Of a stretch of DNA of 64,000 nt, positions 25,698 through 63,970 are shown piece by piece. The position numbers were made by a program, and so were the translations under genes. A model generated the notes under the pieces. The model was not told where the DNA came from. It made no database searches and worked only from the letters and a program-made list of their open reading frames with translations. The DNA is taken from assembly GCA_002897735.1 (NCBI GenBank), contig BDTW01000038.1, positions 1 through 64,000 of the forward strand, read 5' to 3'. Numbering within the stretch: position 1 is the first letter of the stretch; each line of letters begins with the position of its first letter. Source of the DNA: a bacterium BMS3Bbin13. GTDB taxonomy: Bacteria > Pseudomonadota > Gammaproteobacteria > 21-64-14.

Positions 25698-26225
25698 GTG
25701 CTGAGAATGCTGCGCAAGATCGCCCGGACCGGCGTCGTGACCGAGGCGCCGCCGGATTCCCCGGGGCCGGTGCTCGAGTCGGTCGGGGAGCGCCTGTGCG
25801 CGACGCTCGTGCGGCGCTTCGCGGGGTGCCTGGCGATCCGCCAAGTCGATGCCGGCTCCTGCAACGGCTGCGAACTCGAGATTCAGGCTTTGAACAACCC
25901 GTTCTATGCGATCGAGCGCTTCGGCGTGCACTTCGTGGCCTCACCGCGCCACGCCGACCTGCTGCTCGTCACCGGACCGGTCTCGCGGCACATGGAGGCG
26001 GCGTTGCGCGCCACCTACGAGGCGATGCCGGAACCGCGCCTGGTGATCGCCGTCGGCGACTGCGGCGCGGACGGCGGCGAGTTCGGGGTCTCCTACGCGA
26101 GCTGCGGCGCGGTCGCCAACGTCCTTCCCGTCGACGGCGTGATCCGCGGCTGCCCACCGGACCCCATGCAACTGACGCTCGGCCTCCTGGAGGTCCTGAG
26201 AAAAGCGACACGGGGTCAGGCTTGA
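25698..26225 (+). CDS. hyfI: Hydrogenase-4-like small Fe-S subunit (NuoB-like)
   Basis: A 175-residue NuoB/HyfI-type subunit holding the N2-type 4Fe-4S cluster. Ligands are Cys-x2-Cys in GSCNGCELE, then GDCGADGG and GCPPDP; all four are present. The rest (QALNNPFYAIERFGVHFVAS, LLLVTGPVSRHMEAALRATY, VDGVIRGCPPDPMQLTLGLL) matches the family. GTG 25698 has GGAGA 7 nt upstream. The last three codons and the stop are supplied by the left arm of the inverted-repeat element at 26213, so the native C-terminus was probably replaced on insertion. It completes a B-C-E-F-G-I set; no hyfA, hyfH or formate dehydrogenase gene is present. Confidence 0.88.
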   Translation: MLRMLRKIARTGVVTEAPPDSPGPVLESVGERLCATLVRRFAGCLAIRQVDAGSCNGCELEIQALNNPFYAIERFGVHFVASPRHADLLLVTGPVSRHMEAALRATYEAMPEPRLVIAVGDCGADGGEFGVSYASCGAVANVLPVDGVIRGCPPDPMQLTLGLLEVLRKATRGQA

Positions 26226-26424
26226 CTTATGGGTATTCGTTATTCTGAAAATGGAAGACCGGCCTTGATTGATCCGGCCATGTCCCTGGGGCGGGAACGG
26301 TCAGGGCTCCGTCAAGCTGCCGGCCGACTGCATCAGCGGAAAATCAGGGGGCCCGGGATCGGAGAAAGGCTTGCCGGCAATTAGAAGAAACCTCCACCAA
26401 ATACCCATAAGTCAAGCCTGACCC
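26213..26424. mobile_element. MITE-like element with 25-bp perfect terminal inverted repeats
   Basis: The arm at 26213-26237 (begins GGGTCAGGCTTGAC, continues TTATGGGTATT) is exactly repeated in reverse complement at 26400-26424. The 162-bp interior has no open frame and contains short GGCC-type palindromes. Size, lack of coding and perfect termini fit a non-autonomous element. The left arm overlaps the end of hyfI and provides its stop codon. GGGTCAGGCTTGAC termini recall motifs near REP-associated transposases, but this is recollection only. No second copy is visible in the window. Confidence 0.7.
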
Positions 26425-26450
26425 GATGGTCCTCCCGATGGTCCTGCGCT

Positions 26451-27029
26451 TCAATAGAAGTCGGGTTCGTTGCCCGGTTTCCATTTGATGTTGCAGCCGA
26501 GGCTGGGTTTCTGGTCGGTCGGTACTGCACGCCCGGCGAGTACCGCGTCGATGGCCGCCGCGAGATCCCGGCCCGTGACCGGCGCGTCGTTGCCGGGGCG
26601 GGCGTCGTCGAACTGCCCGCGATAGACCAGCCTGCGGTTGCGATCGAACAGGAAGAAATCGGGCGTGCAGGCGGCCCGATAGGCCTTGGCGACTTCCTGG
26701 GTCTCGTCATACAGATAGGGGAAGGTGTAGCCGATATTGCGCACCTCCTCGATCATCTTCTCCGGGGCGTCGTCCGGGTAGTGGGCGACGTCGTTGGAGT
26801 TGATGCCCACCGCTGCGAGGCCTTTGCCTTGATAGTCGCGGACCAGTTCCGCAAGGCGGCGGCGGATGTGCCGCACGTACGGGCAGTGGTTGCAGATGAA
26901 CGTCACCAGCAGCGCGGGGGCGTCGCGGAAGTCGTCCAGGGAGACTTCGCGGTCGGTGACCGGTTCCGGCAGGCGAAAGTCCGGTGCCGGTGTGCCGAGT
27001 TCCAGCATGGTCGATGCGGTGCGTGTCAT
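26451..27029 (-). CDS. Thioredoxin-fold (peroxiredoxin/TlpA-like) cytoplasmic protein
   Basis: A 192-residue thioredoxin-family protein. It opens LELGTPAPDFRLPEPVTD, continues ALLVTFICNHCPYVRHIRRR, a CxxC redox pair (Cys-Asn-His-Cys), and has IGINSND, then YLYDETQEVAKAYRAACTPDFFLFD with the conserved cis-Pro segment (CTPDFF) and YRGQFDDARPGNDAPVTGRDL. It has no signal peptide. Proteins of this shape are annotated as thioredoxin family/AhpC-TSA and are presumed thiol reductants or peroxidases. ATG 27029 has GGAGGG 6 nt upstream. It is divergent from the Mla operon. Confidence 0.8.
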   Translation of the reverse strand: MTRTASTMLELGTPAPDFRLPEPVTDREVSLDDFRDAPALLVTFICNHCPYVRHIRRRLAELVRDYQGKGLAAVGINSNDVAHYPDDAPEKMIEEVRNIGYTFPYLYDETQEVAKAYRAACTPDFFLFDRNRRLVYRGQFDDARPGNDAPVTGRDLAAAIDAVLAGRAVPTDQKPSLGCNIKWKPGNEPDFY

Positions 27030-27107
27030 GGGGCCCTCCATTGCGGGCGGGGCGCGCGGTGCCCGTCCGGTCGCGGCCGATTCCGACCCTCTGATTCTAC
27101 CGGAACG

Positions 27108-27154
27108 CAGCCGCCCTTGTGCCGCCCGGCCGCCGGGCGGCACAAGGGCGGCTG
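27108..27154. repeat. 47-bp near-perfect palindrome between divergent genes
   Basis: Arms of 23 bp (27108-27130 and 27132-27154; outer CAGCCGCCCTTGTGC, inner GCCCGGC) are perfectly complementary around a single C. It lies between the thioredoxin-like gene (start 27029) and mlaE (start 27199), 44 nt before mlaE. It could be a cruciform, a bidirectional regulatory or attenuator hairpin, or a stray REP element. Confidence 0.8.
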
Positions 27155-27198
27155 AAATCCCTTGCAAGCGGCCTGGGCCCGCGCAACACTTTGCGCCG

Positions 27199-28362
27199 AT
27201 GAACCGGCCGCGGGAAACCTTGGGTACGAAGGGGAATGCGCAGGGGGGTGGCGCCCCGGATGTCCGGTTGGTGCCCGGGCGCGACGCGGTGGAATGCGTC
27301 GGCGACTGGACCGTGGATCGGCTCGCCGGTCTGCAGGGACGGTTGGATGCACTGCCCTGGCCGTCGGCGCAGGAAATCGTCGTCGACGGCAGCGGGGTGC
27401 GCGCCATGGATACCGCGGGCGCGTTCTTTCTGTGCCGCACCGTCGGCGGGCTGGAGAAGCGAGGGATTCGGGTCTCGGTACAGGGGTTGCGTCCGGAGTT
27501 GGAGCGGCTCCTGGCGCTCATCCGCAACCCGGCGCTGTCCGGGGCGGAACCCGTGCCGGTGCCGCGTCCCGGCTACCTGGAACGGATCGGCCGCGAGACC
27601 TGGGCCCGCGTTGAAGAAGGGGTGGGTCTGCTCGCCTTCGTCGGCGAGATCTTCCTGACGCTCACGCGCTGGCTGCGCCACCCGGCGCGTATCCGCGGGC
27701 GCATATTCCTGCATGAGGTCCAGATGGCGGGCTCCAACGCCCTGCCGATCATCGGCCTGCTGTCCTTCCTGCTGGGCGTGGTCATCGCCTATCAGGGCGG
27801 GGCGCAGCTCCAGTACTACGGGGCGAACATCTTCATCGCCGATCTGGTCGGTTTCGCGATGCTCCGCGAGTTGGCCCCCCTCATGACCGCCATCATCGTC
27901 GCCGGCCGTACCGGCTCGGCGTTCACCGCGCAGATCGGCACTATGCAGGTCAACGAGGAGATCGACGCCCTGCGTACCATGGGGTTGGCGCCGATGGACG
28001 TGTTGGTGGTGCCCAGGCTGCTGGCGCTGATCCTGACACTGCCGCTGCTCACCGTGTATGCGGATGCAATGGGGGTATTCGGTGGTATGGTGATGGCGAA
28101 GCTGCAGCTCGGGATCGGGTTCGGGGTGTTCCTGACCCGCTTCGAGTCGGCGGTGACCCTGCCTTCCTATCTGCTCGGGATCGTGAAGGCGCCGGTGTTC
28201 GCGGGTATCGTCGCGGTGGTGGGTTGTTATCAGGGGTTCCGCGTGAGCGGCGGGACGGACAGCGTGGGTCGTCAGACCACGATGAGCGTTGTGCAGTCGA
28301 TCTTTCTGATCATCGTGGTGGACGCCGCGTTCTCGGTGGTGTTCAGCTGGCTGGGAGTGTAG
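27199..28362 (+). CDS. mlaE: MlaE-type permease with N-terminal STAS domain
   Basis: A 387-residue ABC permease for phospholipid transport between the envelope membranes. Residues 15-115 form a STAS domain (GDWTVDRLAGLQGRLDAL, VVDGSGVRAMDTAGAFFLCR), the role played by separate MlaB in E. coli. The rest is the YrbE fold: RIFLHEVQMAGSNALPIIGL, AYQGGAQLQYYGANIFIADL, LRELAPLMTAIIVAGRTGSA, QVNEEIDALRTMGLAPMDVL. ATG 27199 is the first start after the palindrome. It is followed after 2 nt by mlaF. Confidence 0.9.
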   Translation: MNRPRETLGTKGNAQGGGAPDVRLVPGRDAVECVGDWTVDRLAGLQGRLDALPWPSAQEIVVDGSGVRAMDTAGAFFLCRTVGGLEKRGIRVSVQGLRPELERLLALIRNPALSGAEPVPVPRPGYLERIGRETWARVEEGVGLLAFVGEIFLTLTRWLRHPARIRGRIFLHEVQMAGSNALPIIGLLSFLLGVVIAYQGGAQLQYYGANIFIADLVGFAMLRELAPLMTAIIVAGRTGSAFTAQIGTMQVNEEIDALRTMGLAPMDVLVVPRLLALILTLPLLTVYADAMGVFGGMVMAKLQLGIGFGVFLTRFESAVTLPSYLLGIVKAPVFAGIVAVVGCYQGFRVSGGTDSVGRQTTMSVVQSIFLIIVVDAAFSVVFSWLGV

Positions 28363-28364
28363 GT

Positions 28365-29153
28365 GTGGCCGCGGAGTTCGGCGAGCCGGTGGTGGAGGTG
28401 CGCGACCTCGTCACACGCTTCGGCGCGCAGCGGGTCCACGACCGGATCGATCTGACCGTGCATCGCGGAGAGATCCTCGCCATCGTCGGCGGGAGCGGAT
28501 CGGGGAAATCCACCCTGCTGCGCGAGATCCTCCTGCTGCTGCGCCCGACCTCCGGCACCATCCGGCTGTTCGGTCGCGATGTGGACGGGTTCTCCGAGGC
28601 CGAATTGCTCGCTCTGCGCCGGCGTACCGGGGTGCTGTTTCAACGCGACGCCCTGTTCAGCTCGATGACGGTGCTGGCCAACGTCGGGGTGCCCCTGCGG
28701 GAACACACCGCCCTGGCCGATAAGGTCGTCGACCGGATCGCGGCGATGAAGATCGCCATGGTCGGACTCGAGCCGGAGGCGGGCGCCAAACTTCCGAGCC
28801 AGCTCAGCGGAGGGATGCGCAAGCGCGCCGCATTGGCTCGGGCGCTGGCGCTGGACCCGGAACTGTTGTTCCTGGACGAACCCACCTCCGGACTCGACCC
28901 GCCCAGTGCCCGCGAACTCGACGAACTCGTGGTCGGGCTGCGCGACAGTCTGGGCCTGACCGTGGTGATGGTGACCCACGATCCCGACAGCCTGTGGCGC
29001 GCCGCGGACCGGGTGGCGATGCTCGGCGAGGGGCGCTTGGTGGGGGAGGGGCCGGTGGACGAACTGCAGAGATCGGAGCATCCCCTGGTGCGGGCCTTTT
29101 TCGCGACCACGCACCGGGGCGATGCGGCGGGGGCGGCATGGAGCCCAAAGTAA
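28365..29153 (+). CDS. mlaF: MlaF-type ABC transporter ATP-binding protein
   Basis: A 262-residue nucleotide-binding subunit. It has Walker A GGSGSGKST, Q-loop LFQRDALFSSMTVLANV, signature LSGGMRKRAALARAL, Walker B ELLFLDEPTSGLDP and H-switch MVTHDPDS. The GTG start lies directly after the mlaE stop (TAG GTGTG), and the gene overlaps mlaD by 16 nt. It drives lipid movement through MlaE. Confidence 0.92.
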   Translation: MAAEFGEPVVEVRDLVTRFGAQRVHDRIDLTVHRGEILAIVGGSGSGKSTLLREILLLLRPTSGTIRLFGRDVDGFSEAELLALRRRTGVLFQRDALFSSMTVLANVGVPLREHTALADKVVDRIAAMKIAMVGLEPEAGAKLPSQLSGGMRKRAALARALALDPELLFLDEPTSGLDPPSARELDELVVGLRDSLGLTVVMVTHDPDSLWRAADRVAMLGEGRLVGEGPVDELQRSEHPLVRAFFATTHRGDAAGAAWSPK

Positions 29154-30061
29154 ACTATGCCCTTGTCGGCTTGTTCGTGGTGCTGTTCGGCAGTGCGCTG
29201 ATCGGCGCCGGCCTGTGGCTGGCGACCGGCTCGTTGCGCCAAATCTACGATACCTATTACATCTTCATCAACGAATCGGTCTCGGGTCTGAACGTGGATG
29301 CGCCGGTGAAATACCGCGGGGTGGTCGTGGGTCGCGTGGCGCGAATCGAACTGGCGCCGGGCAATCCGGGGCAGGTCCGACTGACGGCCGAGATCCGCCA
29401 CGGCACCCCGATCAAGGAGAACACCGTGGCGACCCTGCGGCTGCAGGGGTTGACCGGGATCGCTTACGTGGAATTGAACGGCGGGACCGCCGGCGCCGCG
29501 CCGCTCAAGATCGCTCCCGGTCAGCGCTACCCCGTGATCCGCAGTAAACCGTCGTTCCTTGCGCGCCTGGATTCCAATTTCCCGGAACTGCTGATCAATG
29601 TCACGCGGCTGTCCGGGGAACTGACGCAGCTGTTGAACGGGCACAATCGTGCCGCGATCTCCGGTACCTTGCGGCACATGGAGGTGATTACCGGCGATCT
29701 GGCGCGCCAGACGGCCACGGTCGATCGGGTACTGGCGGGGGCGAGCACCACCCTGCGCAACACCGCCCGCGCCACGGCGGGCCTGGATCGCACATTGCGG
29801 CGGATCGGCGACAGTGCCGCCGCGCTGCAACACATGGCGGACCGGATCGCCCTTACCACGGACACCTTGACCCGCACCTTGAAGGCGAGCAGCCCCGGGG
29901 TGGAGCGTTTCTCCGATACGACGTTGCCGCAGGTACAGGGCCTGGTCACGGACCTGCGCCGGCTCGTGGGCAACCTGACCCGGATCAGCGGCGAACTACG
30001 CGACGATCCGCGTATCCTGTTGTTTGGGCGCCGGCCCCGGGCGCCCGGACCGGGCGAATGA
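29138..30061 (+). CDS. mlaD: MlaD-type MCE-domain protein
   Basis: A 307-residue periplasmic lipid-binding ring subunit. There is one N-terminal TM helix (ALVGLFVVLFGSALIGAGLW) and an MCE domain (about 38-120; INESVSGLNVDAPVKYRGV, VGRVARIELAPGN, LRLQGLTGIAYVELNGG). A long helical C-terminus (about 150-290) with heptad-like Leu/Ile probably forms a needle-like coiled coil, longer than in E. coli MlaD (183 residues). The start ATG lies inside the end of mlaF. Confidence 0.9.
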   Translation: MEPKVNYALVGLFVVLFGSALIGAGLWLATGSLRQIYDTYYIFINESVSGLNVDAPVKYRGVVVGRVARIELAPGNPGQVRLTAEIRHGTPIKENTVATLRLQGLTGIAYVELNGGTAGAAPLKIAPGQRYPVIRSKPSFLARLDSNFPELLINVTRLSGELTQLLNGHNRAAISGTLRHMEVITGDLARQTATVDRVLAGASTTLRNTARATAGLDRTLRRIGDSAAALQHMADRIALTTDTLTRTLKASSPGVERFSDTTLPQVQGLVTDLRRLVGNLTRISGELRDDPRILLFGRRPRAPGPGE

Positions 30062-30092
30062 GGCGGGGTGGATGGATTCCGGGGGAGGCGAC

Positions 30093-30791
30093 ATGACGGT
30101 GACGGAAAACGGCCATGCGGGTATGCGCGCACGTCGGCGGGCGATACGGCTCGCGGTGCTGTTCGTGCCGTTGCTCGCCGCGTGCGCCGCACTGCAGCCG
30201 GCGGCTGCACCGGCCATCCAGCGCTATTTGCTGGCACTCCCGGTGCCGGCACCGGCACCCGCGACCGCGGTCGGCCCCGTCCTGGTGGTGGATCCGCCCG
30301 CAGCCGCGCCGGGCCTCCGGGGCCGGGGCATGGTCTATGTCCGGCGTCCCTACCAGTTCGACTACTTTGCGCGCCACGGCTGGGTGGATCCGCCGGCGCG
30401 CATGCTCGAACCGCTGCTGGTGCAGGTGCTGCAGCGCCAAGCGGGTTTTCGCACCGTGCCGGCGAGGCTCGGGGTGGCGGGCGATTTGCGTCTTGAGACG
30501 CGCATCCTGCGACTGCAACAGGAATTTACCGTGCACCCGAGTCGTGAGCGCCTGGTGTTGCAGGCGTGGCTGATCGATGCCCGCAACGGGCGGGTCCTTG
30601 CCGACCGCGTGTTCGAGGCGCTCGAGCCCGCGCCCGGCAACGACCCGTACAGCGGCGTACAGGCCGCCAACCGTGCCGTGGCCAAGGTGCTCACGCAGCT
30701 GGCGGTCTTTTGTCGGGCGCAGGTGCACGACCGCGCCGCGACGCCCCGCGCGGCAAGCCCCGCCGCACCGTTGCATTCCGGTCCGGGGTAG
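30093..30791 (+). CDS. PqiC-like ABC-transport auxiliary lipoprotein
   Basis: A 232-residue lipoprotein with lipobox LLAAC (Cys about 31). Body features FARHGWVDPPARMLEPLLVQ, LETRILRLQQEFTVHPS, AWLIDARNGRVLADRVFEA and DPYSGVQAANRAVAKVLTQL match the ABC-type transport auxiliary family (PqiC/YmbA), which links MCE machines to the outer membrane. ATG 30093 has GGGGGAGG just upstream. It closes the Mla operon and takes the outer-membrane place of mlaA/mlaC, which are absent here. Confidence 0.82.
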   Translation: MTVTENGHAGMRARRRAIRLAVLFVPLLAACAALQPAAAPAIQRYLLALPVPAPAPATAVGPVLVVDPPAAAPGLRGRGMVYVRRPYQFDYFARHGWVDPPARMLEPLLVQVLQRQAGFRTVPARLGVAGDLRLETRILRLQQEFTVHPSRERLVLQAWLIDARNGRVLADRVFEALEPAPGNDPYSGVQAANRAVAKVLTQLAVFCRAQVHDRAATPRAASPAAPLHSGPG

Positions 30792-42265: not shown

Positions 42266-44737
42266 ATGAAGCCGCCTGCACCGATCCTGCCTATCGCACC
42301 TGAGGACGGCGCGCCATGGCGGCCGACGGTATCGACGGAGTCCGCGTTGCGCGCGCTCGGCCTGTCGGGTGTCCCGCGCGGACGTCTCGTGGAGGCCCTT
42401 CCGTTCGGGCCGGACGATATCACCGCCGGGTCCGAGACCGAGTTGCAGGCCGCCGTGGCCGGCCTGCGCAGCGACGTCGATCTGCCGCTCCGGATCCAGC
42501 AGTCGAATTATTTCGCCAACGTGTTGCGTCACGCCGCGGCCGCCGAGACACCCGGACGCGCGGTTGCGGAGATCGAGCGGTTCCTGTTGCACAACCCCGA
42601 CCGGGTCTGGGAGAACAGTTGGGTGCGCATCCGCCGCGCCGACCTCGGTGCGTTCGCCGGGCGCGTGCTGGAGACGGATCTGCGCCGCGACCGACGCGAC
42701 CCGCACGGTCCCTTGCGCGGCGACGCGCACCGCATCCTGTACCGGGCGGCCAACGGCGAGGCGCAGGTGCGGGTGCCGATCAGCTACCTGCTCAAACTGA
42801 CCCTGGCGGAGATCATCGGGTGCCACGAGCGCATACCGGCGCTGGTCTATCAGACCGGCCATCGCCTGATGGGGCACTACCTCAACGACAACTGCTCGCC
42901 GGAGACCCTGTCGTTCCACGTCGCGCGCCTGCGGGCGCGCGAGGGCATGGGCGATGCCGTGGCGCGCGAGACCGCCAAGCGTTTTCTGCTCACTCACCTC
43001 CTCATCCTGTACGCCAACGTGCGTTTCGGCCTGCGCGAGAGCGGGCAGACGGCCATGGTCTACAGCTCGCCGCACCCCCCGGTGCGCCAACGCCGCCTGA
43101 ACGATTGTATCTCGGATACGTTCTACCGCGAGTTGTTCGTCAGTCCCTGCCTGTCCGGTTGGGACGACGGCGAGCGCAAACACGCCTACATGATGTTGTG
43201 TCACGAGGTGCTCAGCCGCAGCCAGCTCAACGCGGTGGCTAAGCTGCGCGAGGCGGGCATCATCACCCGCGATCTCGTGGTGCTTCCCAATCTGTCGAAC
43301 GTGAGCCTCGCCAACAACGGTACCCACGTGAGTCTCGGGAGTCTGCGGCTCGGGGCGGCGTTGCGCGATCCGGCCTCTGGATTCGGTGCGGCGCACGAGA
43401 AACACCTCGGCGACCTCGCGATCAAGATCGCCGAGCACTTTCTGCCGCTGTTCGTCGGCACCTACAGCGCGGCCCCGTATCGCCTCGACTTCCAGGACTT
43501 CCACCCGGAGAAGGCGCTCGCCTTTCTGCCCCACGAACTCGACTACACGCACTTGCGCATGCTCTGGCGCGGCTGGCGGCAGAAGGCCGAGCTGCGCTTC
43601 CTCGGTCATTCGCGCACGCCGCTCGGGCCGCGCTGGATCGACCGGCCGCTGGCCGCCGTCCTGCGCCTGCGCGGCGACGTGGTGCCGGATTTCCGCATCC
43701 TCGATTACCTGGTCGCCCTCGGCAGTACCGATCGCAGCCCGGCGCTGGATGGCTCGCCCGGCAACGAGGAACGCCTCAAGCGGGATCTCGCCGAACTCGG
43801 GGTGTTCGATACGCGCATGGCCGTCTACCAGTTTCTGCGGCTGCGCCCCATGGCGCGCATGGGCTTTTCCGGTTTCGAGGGCCGTCACTACAGCCTATTC
43901 GAGGACCTGCGCGGCGATCTCGGGCGGGCGGTCGATCTCCAGGGGCTGCTCTGCGCGCTCGCCTACAAGTACATCGTCGCCGGCGGCATCGGCCACGGGC
44001 ACATCCCCGACACCCGCTTCGTGGAAAGCGAACGGCGCCAGGTCGTGTTCGCCGCGGCGATCGGGTTGCCCGCCTTCTACGTGCGCCGTGATACCGACAA
44101 TCGTTTCCTGCGGCGGGTGCTGGAGCGTACCGCCCGCGTGCGTCCGAGCCGCCGCTACCGGCGGTACCTGAAGGTGCCGTTGGCGGAGTACCGTAAGGCG
44201 CTGCTGCGCCTTGTGCTGGACGACGGTGCGGATCTCGTGGAGGGACTCGGACTGGAGGCGACGATGCGCGATCTGCGTGAACGCCTCGAGCAGCCCGAAC
44301 GCCTGTCGGCCGCCGCGCGGCTGAGTGCCGGAATCCTCACCGAGGCCGGGGCGCGTTCCCCCCTGTCACTCACCGGTGCCGAGTTCAACCGCGCCGCGGA
44401 ACGCTACTACCGGGGTCCGCTCAAGCAGCATCACCTGCACGAAGGGCTCGCCTGCCTGGAGAGCGATCTGCGTGCGCTGGACGCCGACCGGGTGCGCGAA
44501 CCCGCCTACGGGCATGCATTGCACGCGCTGCTGGGCGAGCGTCCGGCGGTGGACTTCCTCGAGAGGATCCGGCCGGCACTGCTGCGCGAGAGTCCGCGCG
44601 AGGACGATCTCTACCGGCTGATCTGTCTGCTGTTGACCAGTATCCATCGTGACACGGCGCGCGCCGACGCCGCGTTGGAACCCGGGAGGGAAGATGACGA
44701 GGTACCGCCACCAGTACGTCGAGCGGGAAACGGGTAG
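42266..44737 (+). CDS. Large soluble protein of unknown function, first gene of a lipid-enzyme cluster
   Basis: I do not recognise this 823-residue protein. It has no signal peptide or TM helix. It looks mainly alpha-helical, with blocks that read like conserved cores: YQTGHRLMGHYLNDNCSPET (about 195-215), CHEVLSRSQLNAVAKLREAG (about 312-331), LPNLSNVSLANNGTHVSLGS (about 340-360), DFHPEKALAFLPHELDYTHL (about 411-430) and FSGFEGRHYSLFEDLRGDLG (about 534-553). The middle region contains several His, Asn and Arg clusters that could form an active site. The asparagine-rich VSLANNGTHVSLGS suggests a beta-rich catalytic face. Its last 44 nt overlap the PSD-like gene, so the two are coupled. Upstream GGGGGCCGGGAG is a dense but very close ribosome-binding site. 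Confidence 0.7.
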   Translation: MKPPAPILPIAPEDGAPWRPTVSTESALRALGLSGVPRGRLVEALPFGPDDITAGSETELQAAVAGLRSDVDLPLRIQQSNYFANVLRHAAAAETPGRAVAEIERFLLHNPDRVWENSWVRIRRADLGAFAGRVLETDLRRDRRDPHGPLRGDAHRILYRAANGEAQVRVPISYLLKLTLAEIIGCHERIPALVYQTGHRLMGHYLNDNCSPETLSFHVARLRAREGMGDAVARETAKRFLLTHLLILYANVRFGLRESGQTAMVYSSPHPPVRQRRLNDCISDTFYRELFVSPCLSGWDDGERKHAYMMLCHEVLSRSQLNAVAKLREAGIITRDLVVLPNLSNVSLANNGTHVSLGSLRLGAALRDPASGFGAAHEKHLGDLAIKIAEHFLPLFVGTYSAAPYRLDFQDFHPEKALAFLPHELDYTHLRMLWRGWRQKAELRFLGHSRTPLGPRWIDRPLAAVLRLRGDVVPDFRILDYLVALGSTDRSPALDGSPGNEERLKRDLAELGVFDTRMAVYQFLRLRPMARMGFSGFEGRHYSLFEDLRGDLGRAVDLQGLLCALAYKYIVAGGIGHGHIPDTRFVESERRQVVFAAAIGLPAFYVRRDTDNRFLRRVLERTARVRPSRRYRRYLKVPLAEYRKALLRLVLDDGADLVEGLGLEATMRDLRERLEQPERLSAAARLSAGILTEAGARSPLSLTGAEFNRAAERYYRGPLKQHHLHEGLACLESDLRALDADRVREPAYGHALHALLGERPAVDFLERIRPALLRESPREDDLYRLICLLLTSIHRDTARADAALEPGREDDEVPPPVRRAGNG

Positions 44738-53927: not shown

Positions 53928-54014
53928 CCCCCCTCGTGATACCGCACCTCTCGCCCCCCTCGTGACACCGCACCCCCTCGGCCCCCCCTCGTGACACCGC
54001 TCCGCGGTGTCACG
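53928..54014. repeat. REP hairpin copy 1 preceded by decayed tandem units
   Basis: GTGACACCGC-TCC-GCGGTGTCAC at 53991-54013 is a perfect 10-bp hairpin (11 with flanks). Two incomplete CCCCCTCGTGAYACCGCACC units lie before it (about 53928-53990). Confidence 0.85.
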
Positions 54015-54135
54015 CCTTCCGGGCCGCTCCGCGGCACGAACTCACGCATACCAGCCGTACCCGGCCGGTGGGGAGGTTCCGCATCATGCCCTGCTTGATG
54101 CGGCGGGTTTTGTCGCGGTGGCGCTTCCAAGCCGA
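54014..54135. repeat. Long imperfect direct repeat, left copy
   Basis: The 120 bp after REP copy 1 (CCGGGCCGCTCCGCGGCACG, later GGCGCTTCCAA) is repeated with many substitutions at 55170-55285 after REP copy 6. The region 53715-53927 upstream shows no gene, only a CCCGGATAGCGG-type palindrome near 53766. Confidence 0.65.
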
Positions 54136-54168
54136 ATCTCGACGCCAGAGAAAGTGCAGCCGCAGATG

Positions 54169-54193
54169 GGTGACACCGCAGAGCGGTGTCACC
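54169..54193. repeat. REP hairpin copy 2
   Basis: GGTGACACCGC-AGA-GCGGTGTCACC, perfect 11-bp stem, same orientation as copy 4, preceded by CAGATG. Confidence 0.85.
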
Positions 54194-54241
54194 AGATTAG
54201 CGAGGCGGCCACCCATATTGCTCACTCACCCCCTCCCCCCT

Positions 54242-54266
54242 CGTGACACCGCTCTGCGGTGTCACG
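54242..54266. repeat. REP hairpin copy 3, left flank of the transposase
   Basis: CGTGACACCGC-TCT-GCGGTGTCACG followed by CATCTGCAGGCGCTCTGCG, the mirror image of copy 4 with its flank; the pair brackets the transposase gene. Confidence 0.88.
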
Positions 54267-54295
54267 CATCTGCAGGCGCTCTGCGCCACAACGGC

Positions 54296-54829
54296 CTACC
54301 AATGGGTAAACACCTCAAGCAACCCCGTCTCTCCCGCATAATTTCGCGCACTGGACCAGCGCCAATGTTCGGGCCGATCCACATACCCGCGTTTTACCGG
54401 ATTATTGTGAATGTAATCCAGCTTTTGCCTCAATATCACTTCATTCTCAATGATCTGTGGATGCGATCCTTCCTGCCAAAATTGATGTGCCCGGTCATTG
54501 CGATGCGCTTTGCAGGAAAACCGCATACGCTTCAATAGTGCTTCCGCCCTATTCGCTTCCAGCAGGTCAATGGTTTCCCGCGCTGTGTATGACTTGAAGC
54601 CGCTCCAGATCGACGGCAGATTTTCCGCCTGGGCGACCGCATGCAGATGGTTTTCCAGCACGACATAGCCGTAGAGTTTCAAGCCCTTGTGCTCGCCAAG
54701 ATAACGCCACGAATCGAGCAGGATGGCTACTACCTCCCGGCGAGTGAAGACGGGCAGCCATTCCACTACTGTGCAAGTCAGAAAGTGCGGTTGATTGTGC
54801 CCGGCAAAGCGGTAGCGGCTCCTTGCCAT
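54296..54829 (-). CDS. REP-associated tyrosine transposase (RAYT, Y1/IS200-like)
   Basis: A 177-residue single-strand transposase. HUH motif in VVLENHLHAVAQA (His-x-His), and the catalytic Tyr region RQKLDYIHNNPVKRGYVDRP; other family strings are RYRFAGHNQPHFLTCTVVEW and EHWRWSSARNYAG. RAYTs cut and paste REP hairpins. ATG 54829 follows GGAGGGA and excludes the longer start at 54883, which lies in the REP flank. It is bracketed by inverted REP copies 3 and 4 and looks intact and recent: lower GC, AAT/TAT-rich codons. Confidence 0.92.
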   Translation of the reverse strand: MARSRYRFAGHNQPHFLTCTVVEWLPVFTRREVVAILLDSWRYLGEHKGLKLYGYVVLENHLHAVAQAENLPSIWSGFKSYTARETIDLLEANRAEALLKRMRFSCKAHRNDRAHQFWQEGSHPQIIENEVILRQKLDYIHNNPVKRGYVDRPEHWRWSSARNYAGETGLLEVFTHW

Positions 54830-54875
54830 GGTGCGGGTCCCTCCGGTATTTCCCGGCGCAGAGCGCCTGCAGACG

Positions 54876-54900
54876 GGTGACACCGCAGAGCGGTGTCACC
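54876..54900. repeat. REP hairpin copy 4, right flank of the transposase
   Basis: GGTGACACCGC-AGA-GCGGTGTCACC, preceded by CGCAGAGCGCCTGCAGAC; inverted relative to copy 3. Confidence 0.88.
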
Positions 54901-55048
54901 AGACAACCACGCGACTTCACCCGTGACTTGTCCCGCAACCCCGCTTCGGGGATGGTGGTCCGAAAACCGTCGCTCACCGAGTATTCCGGTTCGGCCAGCC
55001 TCGCCGTCGCACAGCGCCGGATCATGTTCCGCGTCCCCGCGCCGCAGG

Positions 55049-55079
55049 CCTGATGACACCGCAGAGCGGTGTCATCAGG
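55049..55079. repeat. REP hairpin copy 5
   Basis: A variant with a longer 14-bp stem: CCTGATGACACCGC-AGA-GCGGTGTCATCAGG. GTGAC has become ATGAC with the compensating change in the other arm, direct evidence that stem pairing is selected. Confidence 0.88.
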
Positions 55080-55084
55080 CGCGA

Positions 55085-55141
55085 GAGGCGTCGCGCGCGT
55101 CGCGGCGTCGGGCCTCGACGCGCGCCCGAAGGACGGACTCC
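55085..55141. repeat. 57-bp stray copy of the adjacent kinase gene
   Basis: Matches 55473-55529 (inside the AAA/kinase gene) at 54 of 57 positions; both contain GGGCCTCGACGCGCGCCCGA and GGACGGACTCC. It sits directly between REP copies 5 and 6. Confidence 0.85.
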
Positions 55142-55144
55142 CCT

Positions 55145-55169
55145 CGTGACACCGCTCTGCGGTGTCACG
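55145..55169. repeat. REP hairpin copy 6
   Basis: CGTGACACCGC-TCT-GCGGTGTCACG, followed by a 115-bp flank homologous to that after copy 1. Confidence 0.85.
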
Positions 55170-63489: not shown

Positions 63490-63970
63490 TAGCCTGGATG
63501 GAGCGAAGCGCAATCCGGGGAAAGGAGCGGTTTGATCGGACCCCTGGATTTCGGCCTGCGGCCTGCATCCAGGCTACGGGGCGGTGGTAGCCTGGATGGA
63601 GCGAAGCGCAATCCGGGGAAAGGAGCGGTGCGATCGGATCCCCGGATTTCGGCCTGCGGCCTGCATCCAGGCTACGGGGCGGTAGTAGCCTGGATGGAGC
63701 GAAGCGCAATCCGGGGAAAGGAGCGGTTTGATCGGACCCCTGGATTTCGGCCTGCGGCCTGCATCCAGGCTACGGGGCGGTGGTAGCCTGGACGGAGCGA
63801 AGCGCAATCCGGGGAAAGGAGCAGTGCGATCGGACCCCTGGATTTCGGCCTGCGGCCTGCATCCAGGCTACGGGGCGGTAGTAGCCTGGATGGAGCGAAG
63901 CGCAATCCGGGGAAAGGCGCGGTGCGATCGGATCCCCGGATTTCGGCCTGCGGCCTGCATCCAGGCTACG
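63490..63970. repeat. Array of 98-bp tandem repeats (five units)
   Basis: Units start at 63490, 63588, 63686, 63784 and 63882, each beginning TAGCCTGGATGGAGCGAAGC and ending CATCCAGGCTACGGGG. The ends are inverted copies (TAGCCTGGATG / CATCCAGGCTA), so each unit is a long imperfect palindrome. Inner variants alternate: GTTTGATCGGACCCCT in units 1 and 3, GTGCGATCGGATCCCC in 2 and 5, a hybrid in 4. A decayed half-unit precedes it (about 63463-63489). Confidence 0.92.

Follow-up and report, generated by a model that had tools for sequence, protein, structure and literature searches.

In Escherichia coli, the conversion of quasipalindromes into more perfect palindromes by template switching is established (PMC7202029). 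The E. coli products and the palindrome reported in the present study have in common perfect arms, a local and single-copy character and no features of mobile elements (PMC7202029); the difference is that here the ancestral imperfect repeat is one that we infer only. REP elements and RAYTs, described in PMC3733652 and PMC2817692, resemble the present case in that an extragenic palindrome occurs in a genome carrying Y1 transposase genes, whereas their many copies contrast with the one copy found here, which has perfect 23-bp arms and no GTAG or CGTC tag. According to PMC7999016, cruciform extrusion starts where the centre of the palindrome melts, and in vivo its driving force is the torsion that transcription and replication produce. 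Herein, we describe a 47-bp palindrome from the bacterium BMS3Bbin13 (Gammaproteobacteria; 21-64-14), located in a stretch of 64,000 nucleotides (contig BDTW01000038.1, positions 1 to 64,000 of the forward strand) that is referred to as the window.

Results

The palindrome is located in a 169-nt intergenic region (27030-27198) between a thioredoxin-like gene, whose ATG appears from the sequence to be preceded by an SD-like GGAGGG, and mlaE, which is followed by a run of Mla genes. The following features were assigned:

26451-27029, minus strand: gene of the thioredoxin-like / AhpC-TSA family (P0002), from an AhpC-TSA/Redoxin match
27108-27154, no strand: 47-bp palindrome with arms 27108-27130 and 27132-27154 and centre C27131, from arm complementarity and hairpin folding
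27199-28362, plus strand: gene for an mlaE-type lipid ABC transporter permease with an N-terminal STAS domain (P0001), from an MlaE match; start codon uncertain
28365-29153, plus strand: ABC transporter ATPase gene, mlaF-like, the first of the following run of Mla genes
28994-30061: ORF with an MlaD domain, in the Mla gene run after mlaE
30024-30791: ABC_trans_aux ORF, in the Mla gene run after mlaE

The first-pass annotation of this DNA had described a near-perfect 47-bp palindrome with 23-bp arms, 44 nt before mlaE and between divergent thioredoxin-like and mlaE genes. The size, arms and coordinates were confirmed, the distance of 44 nt is exact (mlaE ATG at 27199), and the neighbours were borne out by matches to AhpC-TSA/Redoxin on the minus strand and MlaE on the plus strand; the term near-perfect, however, understates the symmetry, as 23 of 23 arm positions are paired (100% complementary) around the single C27131. 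The arm length is far above chance expectation: perfect inverted repeats with arms of at least 23 bp and a loop of 0-12 are expected about 2.7e-7 times per 64-kb window at 69% G+C, the longest arms in five mononucleotide-shuffled windows reached 10-12 bp, and the second-longest perfect inverted repeat of the window has 15-bp arms. As single-stranded DNA, the palindrome forms a hairpin of -34.1 kcal/mol (z -10.1), and its centre consists entirely of G and C.

The order-level comparison comprised two genomes, that of BMS3Bbin13 itself (G000) and that of a sister species (G001). Comparison with relatives, as suggested in the first-pass annotation, was run against G001, and the palindrome is absent there. 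The same divergent thioredoxin-like/mlaE pair is present in G001, with protein identities of 86% and 79%, and the flanks on both sides are collinear between the two genomes. Between a common GATTCTA on the left and a common GAAATCCC on the right, 54 nt are found here and 66 nt in the sister, and the similarity of these two spacers is at the level of shuffled sequence (523 of 1000 shuffles reach the score). When the palindrome or its halves were compared with the sister spacer in six local comparisons, 26 to 222 of 1000 shuffles scored at least as high; we do not claim the left arm as the older arm on the strength of the 26/1000 shuffles obtained in one of these six. In the sister, the conserved GAAATCCC likewise marks the end of the spacer, which contains short imperfect hairpins; the best of these, with 8-bp arms and a loop of 6, may be a chance occurrence in G+C-rich DNA. 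Three elements were delimited in this way:

27094-27099, minus strand: TAGAAT, -10-like hexamer of the thioredoxin-like gene, matching 5/6 consensus positions in both genomes
27100-27153, no strand: non-conserved spacer between two promoter-like elements, nearly all palindrome, from the sister comparison
27154-27198, plus strand: conserved non-coding block with the promoter-like pair TTGCAA (27162-27167)-17 nt-AACACT (27185-27190), from conservation in the sister

From GAAATCCC to the mlaE start, 39 of 44 positions are identical to the sister (89%), an alignment equalled by 0 of 1000 shuffles, and this 44-nt block is more conserved than the coding sequence. The promoter-like pair within it ends 8 nt before the mlaE ATG and matches 7 of 12 consensus positions, compared with 6 of 12 for the sister counterpart TTGCGT-17-AACACT. 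No promoter was reported by the promoter scanner, with the mlaE pair falling below threshold; because of this negative result and the weak consensus match, the mlaE promoter is proposed from position and conservation. The palindrome, as read from the sequence, probably lies upstream of this promoter, and if the promoter is placed correctly, the palindrome would be outside the mlaE transcript and could not attenuate it. The -35 element of the thioredoxin-like gene is poor (3/6 here and 1/6 in the sister), and in BMS3Bbin13 it would lie within the left palindrome arm. With respect to the mlaE start, codons 34-233 show 136 differences from the sister in 600 positions, and among the 99 positions of the first 33 codons (27199-27297) there are 44, distributed as 16, 12 and 16 by codon position. 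This lack of third-position bias suggests that the true start is perhaps downstream of 27199, and thus the annotated start may be too early; if 27199 is correct, the closeness of the promoter-like block suggests a leaderless mlaE mRNA.

A genome-wide search for the arm, also suggested in the first-pass annotation, revealed that the palindrome is single-copy in its own genome (2.69 Mb, 62 contigs). At E 0.001, the 161-nt region matched the site and its own reverse and nothing else, and at E 1 ten further short matches appeared, the best at E 0.108. The 21-nt arm core with up to 3 mismatches was found in the two arms and at one 3-mismatch site, with one match for the reversed control pattern, and in G001 the same core gave a single, unrelated 3-mismatch site, with the control pattern also giving 1. 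No exact match to the arm core was obtained in a viral contig collection, and no match to the palindrome region in a plasmid collection. Among 369 genomes of the class, 21, with G000 counted, gave matches with an E value of at most 0.01; the matches besides those of G000 and G001 are short or G+C-rich (12 loci read), and no second convincing case of the palindrome was observed among the 369 genomes. The weak matches in other genomes were rejected as real copies, the 12 judged by eye being G+C-rich chance matches, and an MlaE or thioredoxin-like protein was encoded at 0 of 38 weak-match loci tested. A divergent thioredoxin-like gene was found beside mlaE at 1 of 80 mlaE loci, and that one belongs to the sister species.

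The other long palindromes sampled in the genus are members of repeat families, and the palindrome at 27108-27154 is not. The scan covered 398.8 kb of the rest of the own genome and 400 kb of G001. In the former sample, one other perfect palindrome, with 22-bp arms, exceeded an arm length of 15 bp, and it comes from a multicopy family. This palindrome is located on contig C34 of G000 at 43088-43136 (L158 3088-3136) and has the core GGGGACGGAGGGAATA, for which 29 matches (14 forward, 15 reverse, at most 1 mismatch) are present in the own genome, most of them arranged in facing pairs; one of these pairs (C24, 42856 and 43665) brackets a Y1 transposase match at 43206-43538, and the GGGGACGGAGGGAATA palindromes are apparently a RAYT-type family. 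In the G001 sample, three palindromes with arms longer than 15 bp were found, all of one sequence family. On contig C16 of G001 (L174 3043-4555), three near-identical perfect palindromes of 44-46 nt with GGGACAGATTTATTTGGC arms lie within 1.5 kb.

Several other repeats were observed in the window. Downstream of the thioredoxin-like gene, a MITE-like element at 26205-26430 has 25-nt perfect terminal inverted repeats (GGGTCAGGCTTGACTTATGGGTATT); 80 matching pieces of this element are present in the own genome, about a dozen of at least 90 nt and the rest mostly ends, and none was found in G001. Several of its copies surround a Y1 transposase match on C43 (6516-6839). At 53990-55169, six hairpins with a common TGACACCGC-NNN-GCGGTGTCA stem inside 1.2 kb represent a local repeat family, and four hairpins GGCTACGGGGCGGTRGTAGCC at 63566-63892, closely followed by GAGCGAAGCG, are spaced at ~98 nt and have a REP-like look.

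Discussion

Several parts of the history of this locus are established in the present study, namely the perfect arms, the single copy, the absence from the sister, the unchanged gene order and flanks, and the strong conservation of the mlaE-side block but not of the spacer. Herein, we lean towards the explanation that the palindrome is a single-copy, species-specific inverted duplication, generated by a recent template switch in a fast-evolving, probably untranscribed spacer between divergent promoters, which we consider somewhat more probable than not. The template-switch origin is what we infer from the perfect arms, the single copy, the lack of a target repeat, the unlengthened spacer and the species-restricted presence, all of which fit such an event. 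First, the G+C-rich spacer would have held an inverted repeat, shorter and imperfect, as the starting seed; the short imperfect hairpins of the sister are the kind of seed that this model requires, although the sister spacer is too diverged for an ancestral quasipalindrome to be told from it. Second, intramolecular template switching during replication would have extended this repeat or repaired it to perfection, one arm being copied from the other. Third, the event would be recent enough for zero mismatches to have accumulated between the arms so far; as the comparison comprises two genomes, selection for arm perfection cannot be judged. Transcription of mlaE would be driven by the conserved block that lies downstream of the palindrome, such that the hairpin would not be part of the mlaE mRNA, and the likeliest regulatory consequence would be a modest effect on the promoter of the thioredoxin-like gene, whose -35 position lies under the left arm.

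It is also possible, although unlikely, that the palindrome couples both divergent promoters, either as an operator or as a supercoil sensor that forms a cruciform. Its position between two divergent promoter-like elements, near the -35-like hexamer of mlaE and overlapping the -35 position of the thioredoxin-like gene, is consistent with such a role, whereas the lack of further copies of the core indicates no regulon, and the palindrome is absent from the sister even though both flanking promoter-like elements are retained. Dimeric regulators, moreover, need less than 23-bp perfect arms. Cruciform extrusion, which the first-pass annotation had suggested, receives a mixed answer: a rough estimate, using the standard formula with an assumed formation cost of 18 kcal/mol, disfavours extrusion at sigma -0.03 and favours it at about -0.04 or stronger, but a slow process is to be expected from the G+C-rich centre. 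A cruciform is possible but unsupported.

A decidedly less credible explanation is that an RNA hairpin in the mlaE leader acts as an attenuator, terminator or mRNA stabiliser. The RNA of the surrounding region folds very stably (-89.1 kcal/mol, z -6.15) and the palindrome lies 44 nt before the ATG; like intrinsic terminators and attenuators, it would have a G+C-rich stem and, as RNA, a 3-nt loop. Unlike them, it is located between divergent genes, is probably not transcribed and has no T-run on either strand, and a search for intrinsic terminators with a T-run gave 0 sites in 26900-27300 on both strands. The conserved promoter-like block between the palindrome and mlaE also argues against a leader hairpin, as do the lack of an Rfam match in the window and the absence of the palindrome from the sister. 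The attenuator in the mlaE leader proposed in the first-pass annotation is therefore disfavoured by the missing T-run and the intervening block; a terminator was rejected for want of a T-run after the stem, and a known RNA family because the window has no Rfam match.

An assembly or amplification artefact is very unlikely: G000 is a 62-contig assembly, but a fold-back chimera would run into the reverse complement of its flank, and both flanks are instead collinear with the sister. It is highly improbable that the palindrome is a mobile hairpin, either a REP/RAYT-type element or a small palindromic insertion. The own genome does have Y1 transposase family matches, eight of them over the cut-off, as well as multicopy palindrome families, to one of which the other long palindrome sampled belongs. 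The present palindrome, however, is single-copy, no GTAG or CGTC tag is found in its flanks TCTACCGGAACG and AAATCCCTTGCA, the 12-nt flanks have no common direct repeat of at least 3 nt that could represent a target-site repeat, the spacer is shorter than that of the sister (54 vs 66 nt), and neither the core in viral contigs nor the region in plasmids gave a match. The mobile hairpin put forward in the first-pass annotation is contradicted by these results: the copy number, the flanks and the length of the spacer led us to reject a mobile or repeated hairpin. The faintest prospect of all is a torsion sensor, in which a cruciform extruded by transcription of one gene would cover the -35 region of the thioredoxin-like gene and serve the mla operon as a buffer of supercoiling.

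Most likely, the palindrome is recent, species-specific and nothing out of the ordinary, its effect on the promoters being local and modest at most, and its general significance is small. If near relatives confirm the template-switch origin, the locus would offer a clear-cut natural case of a palindrome-forming mutation that arose recently in a promoter region, useful for measuring the response of divergent promoters to such events. Should the palindrome prove to be kept by selection, it would represent an unusual supercoil-responsive element.
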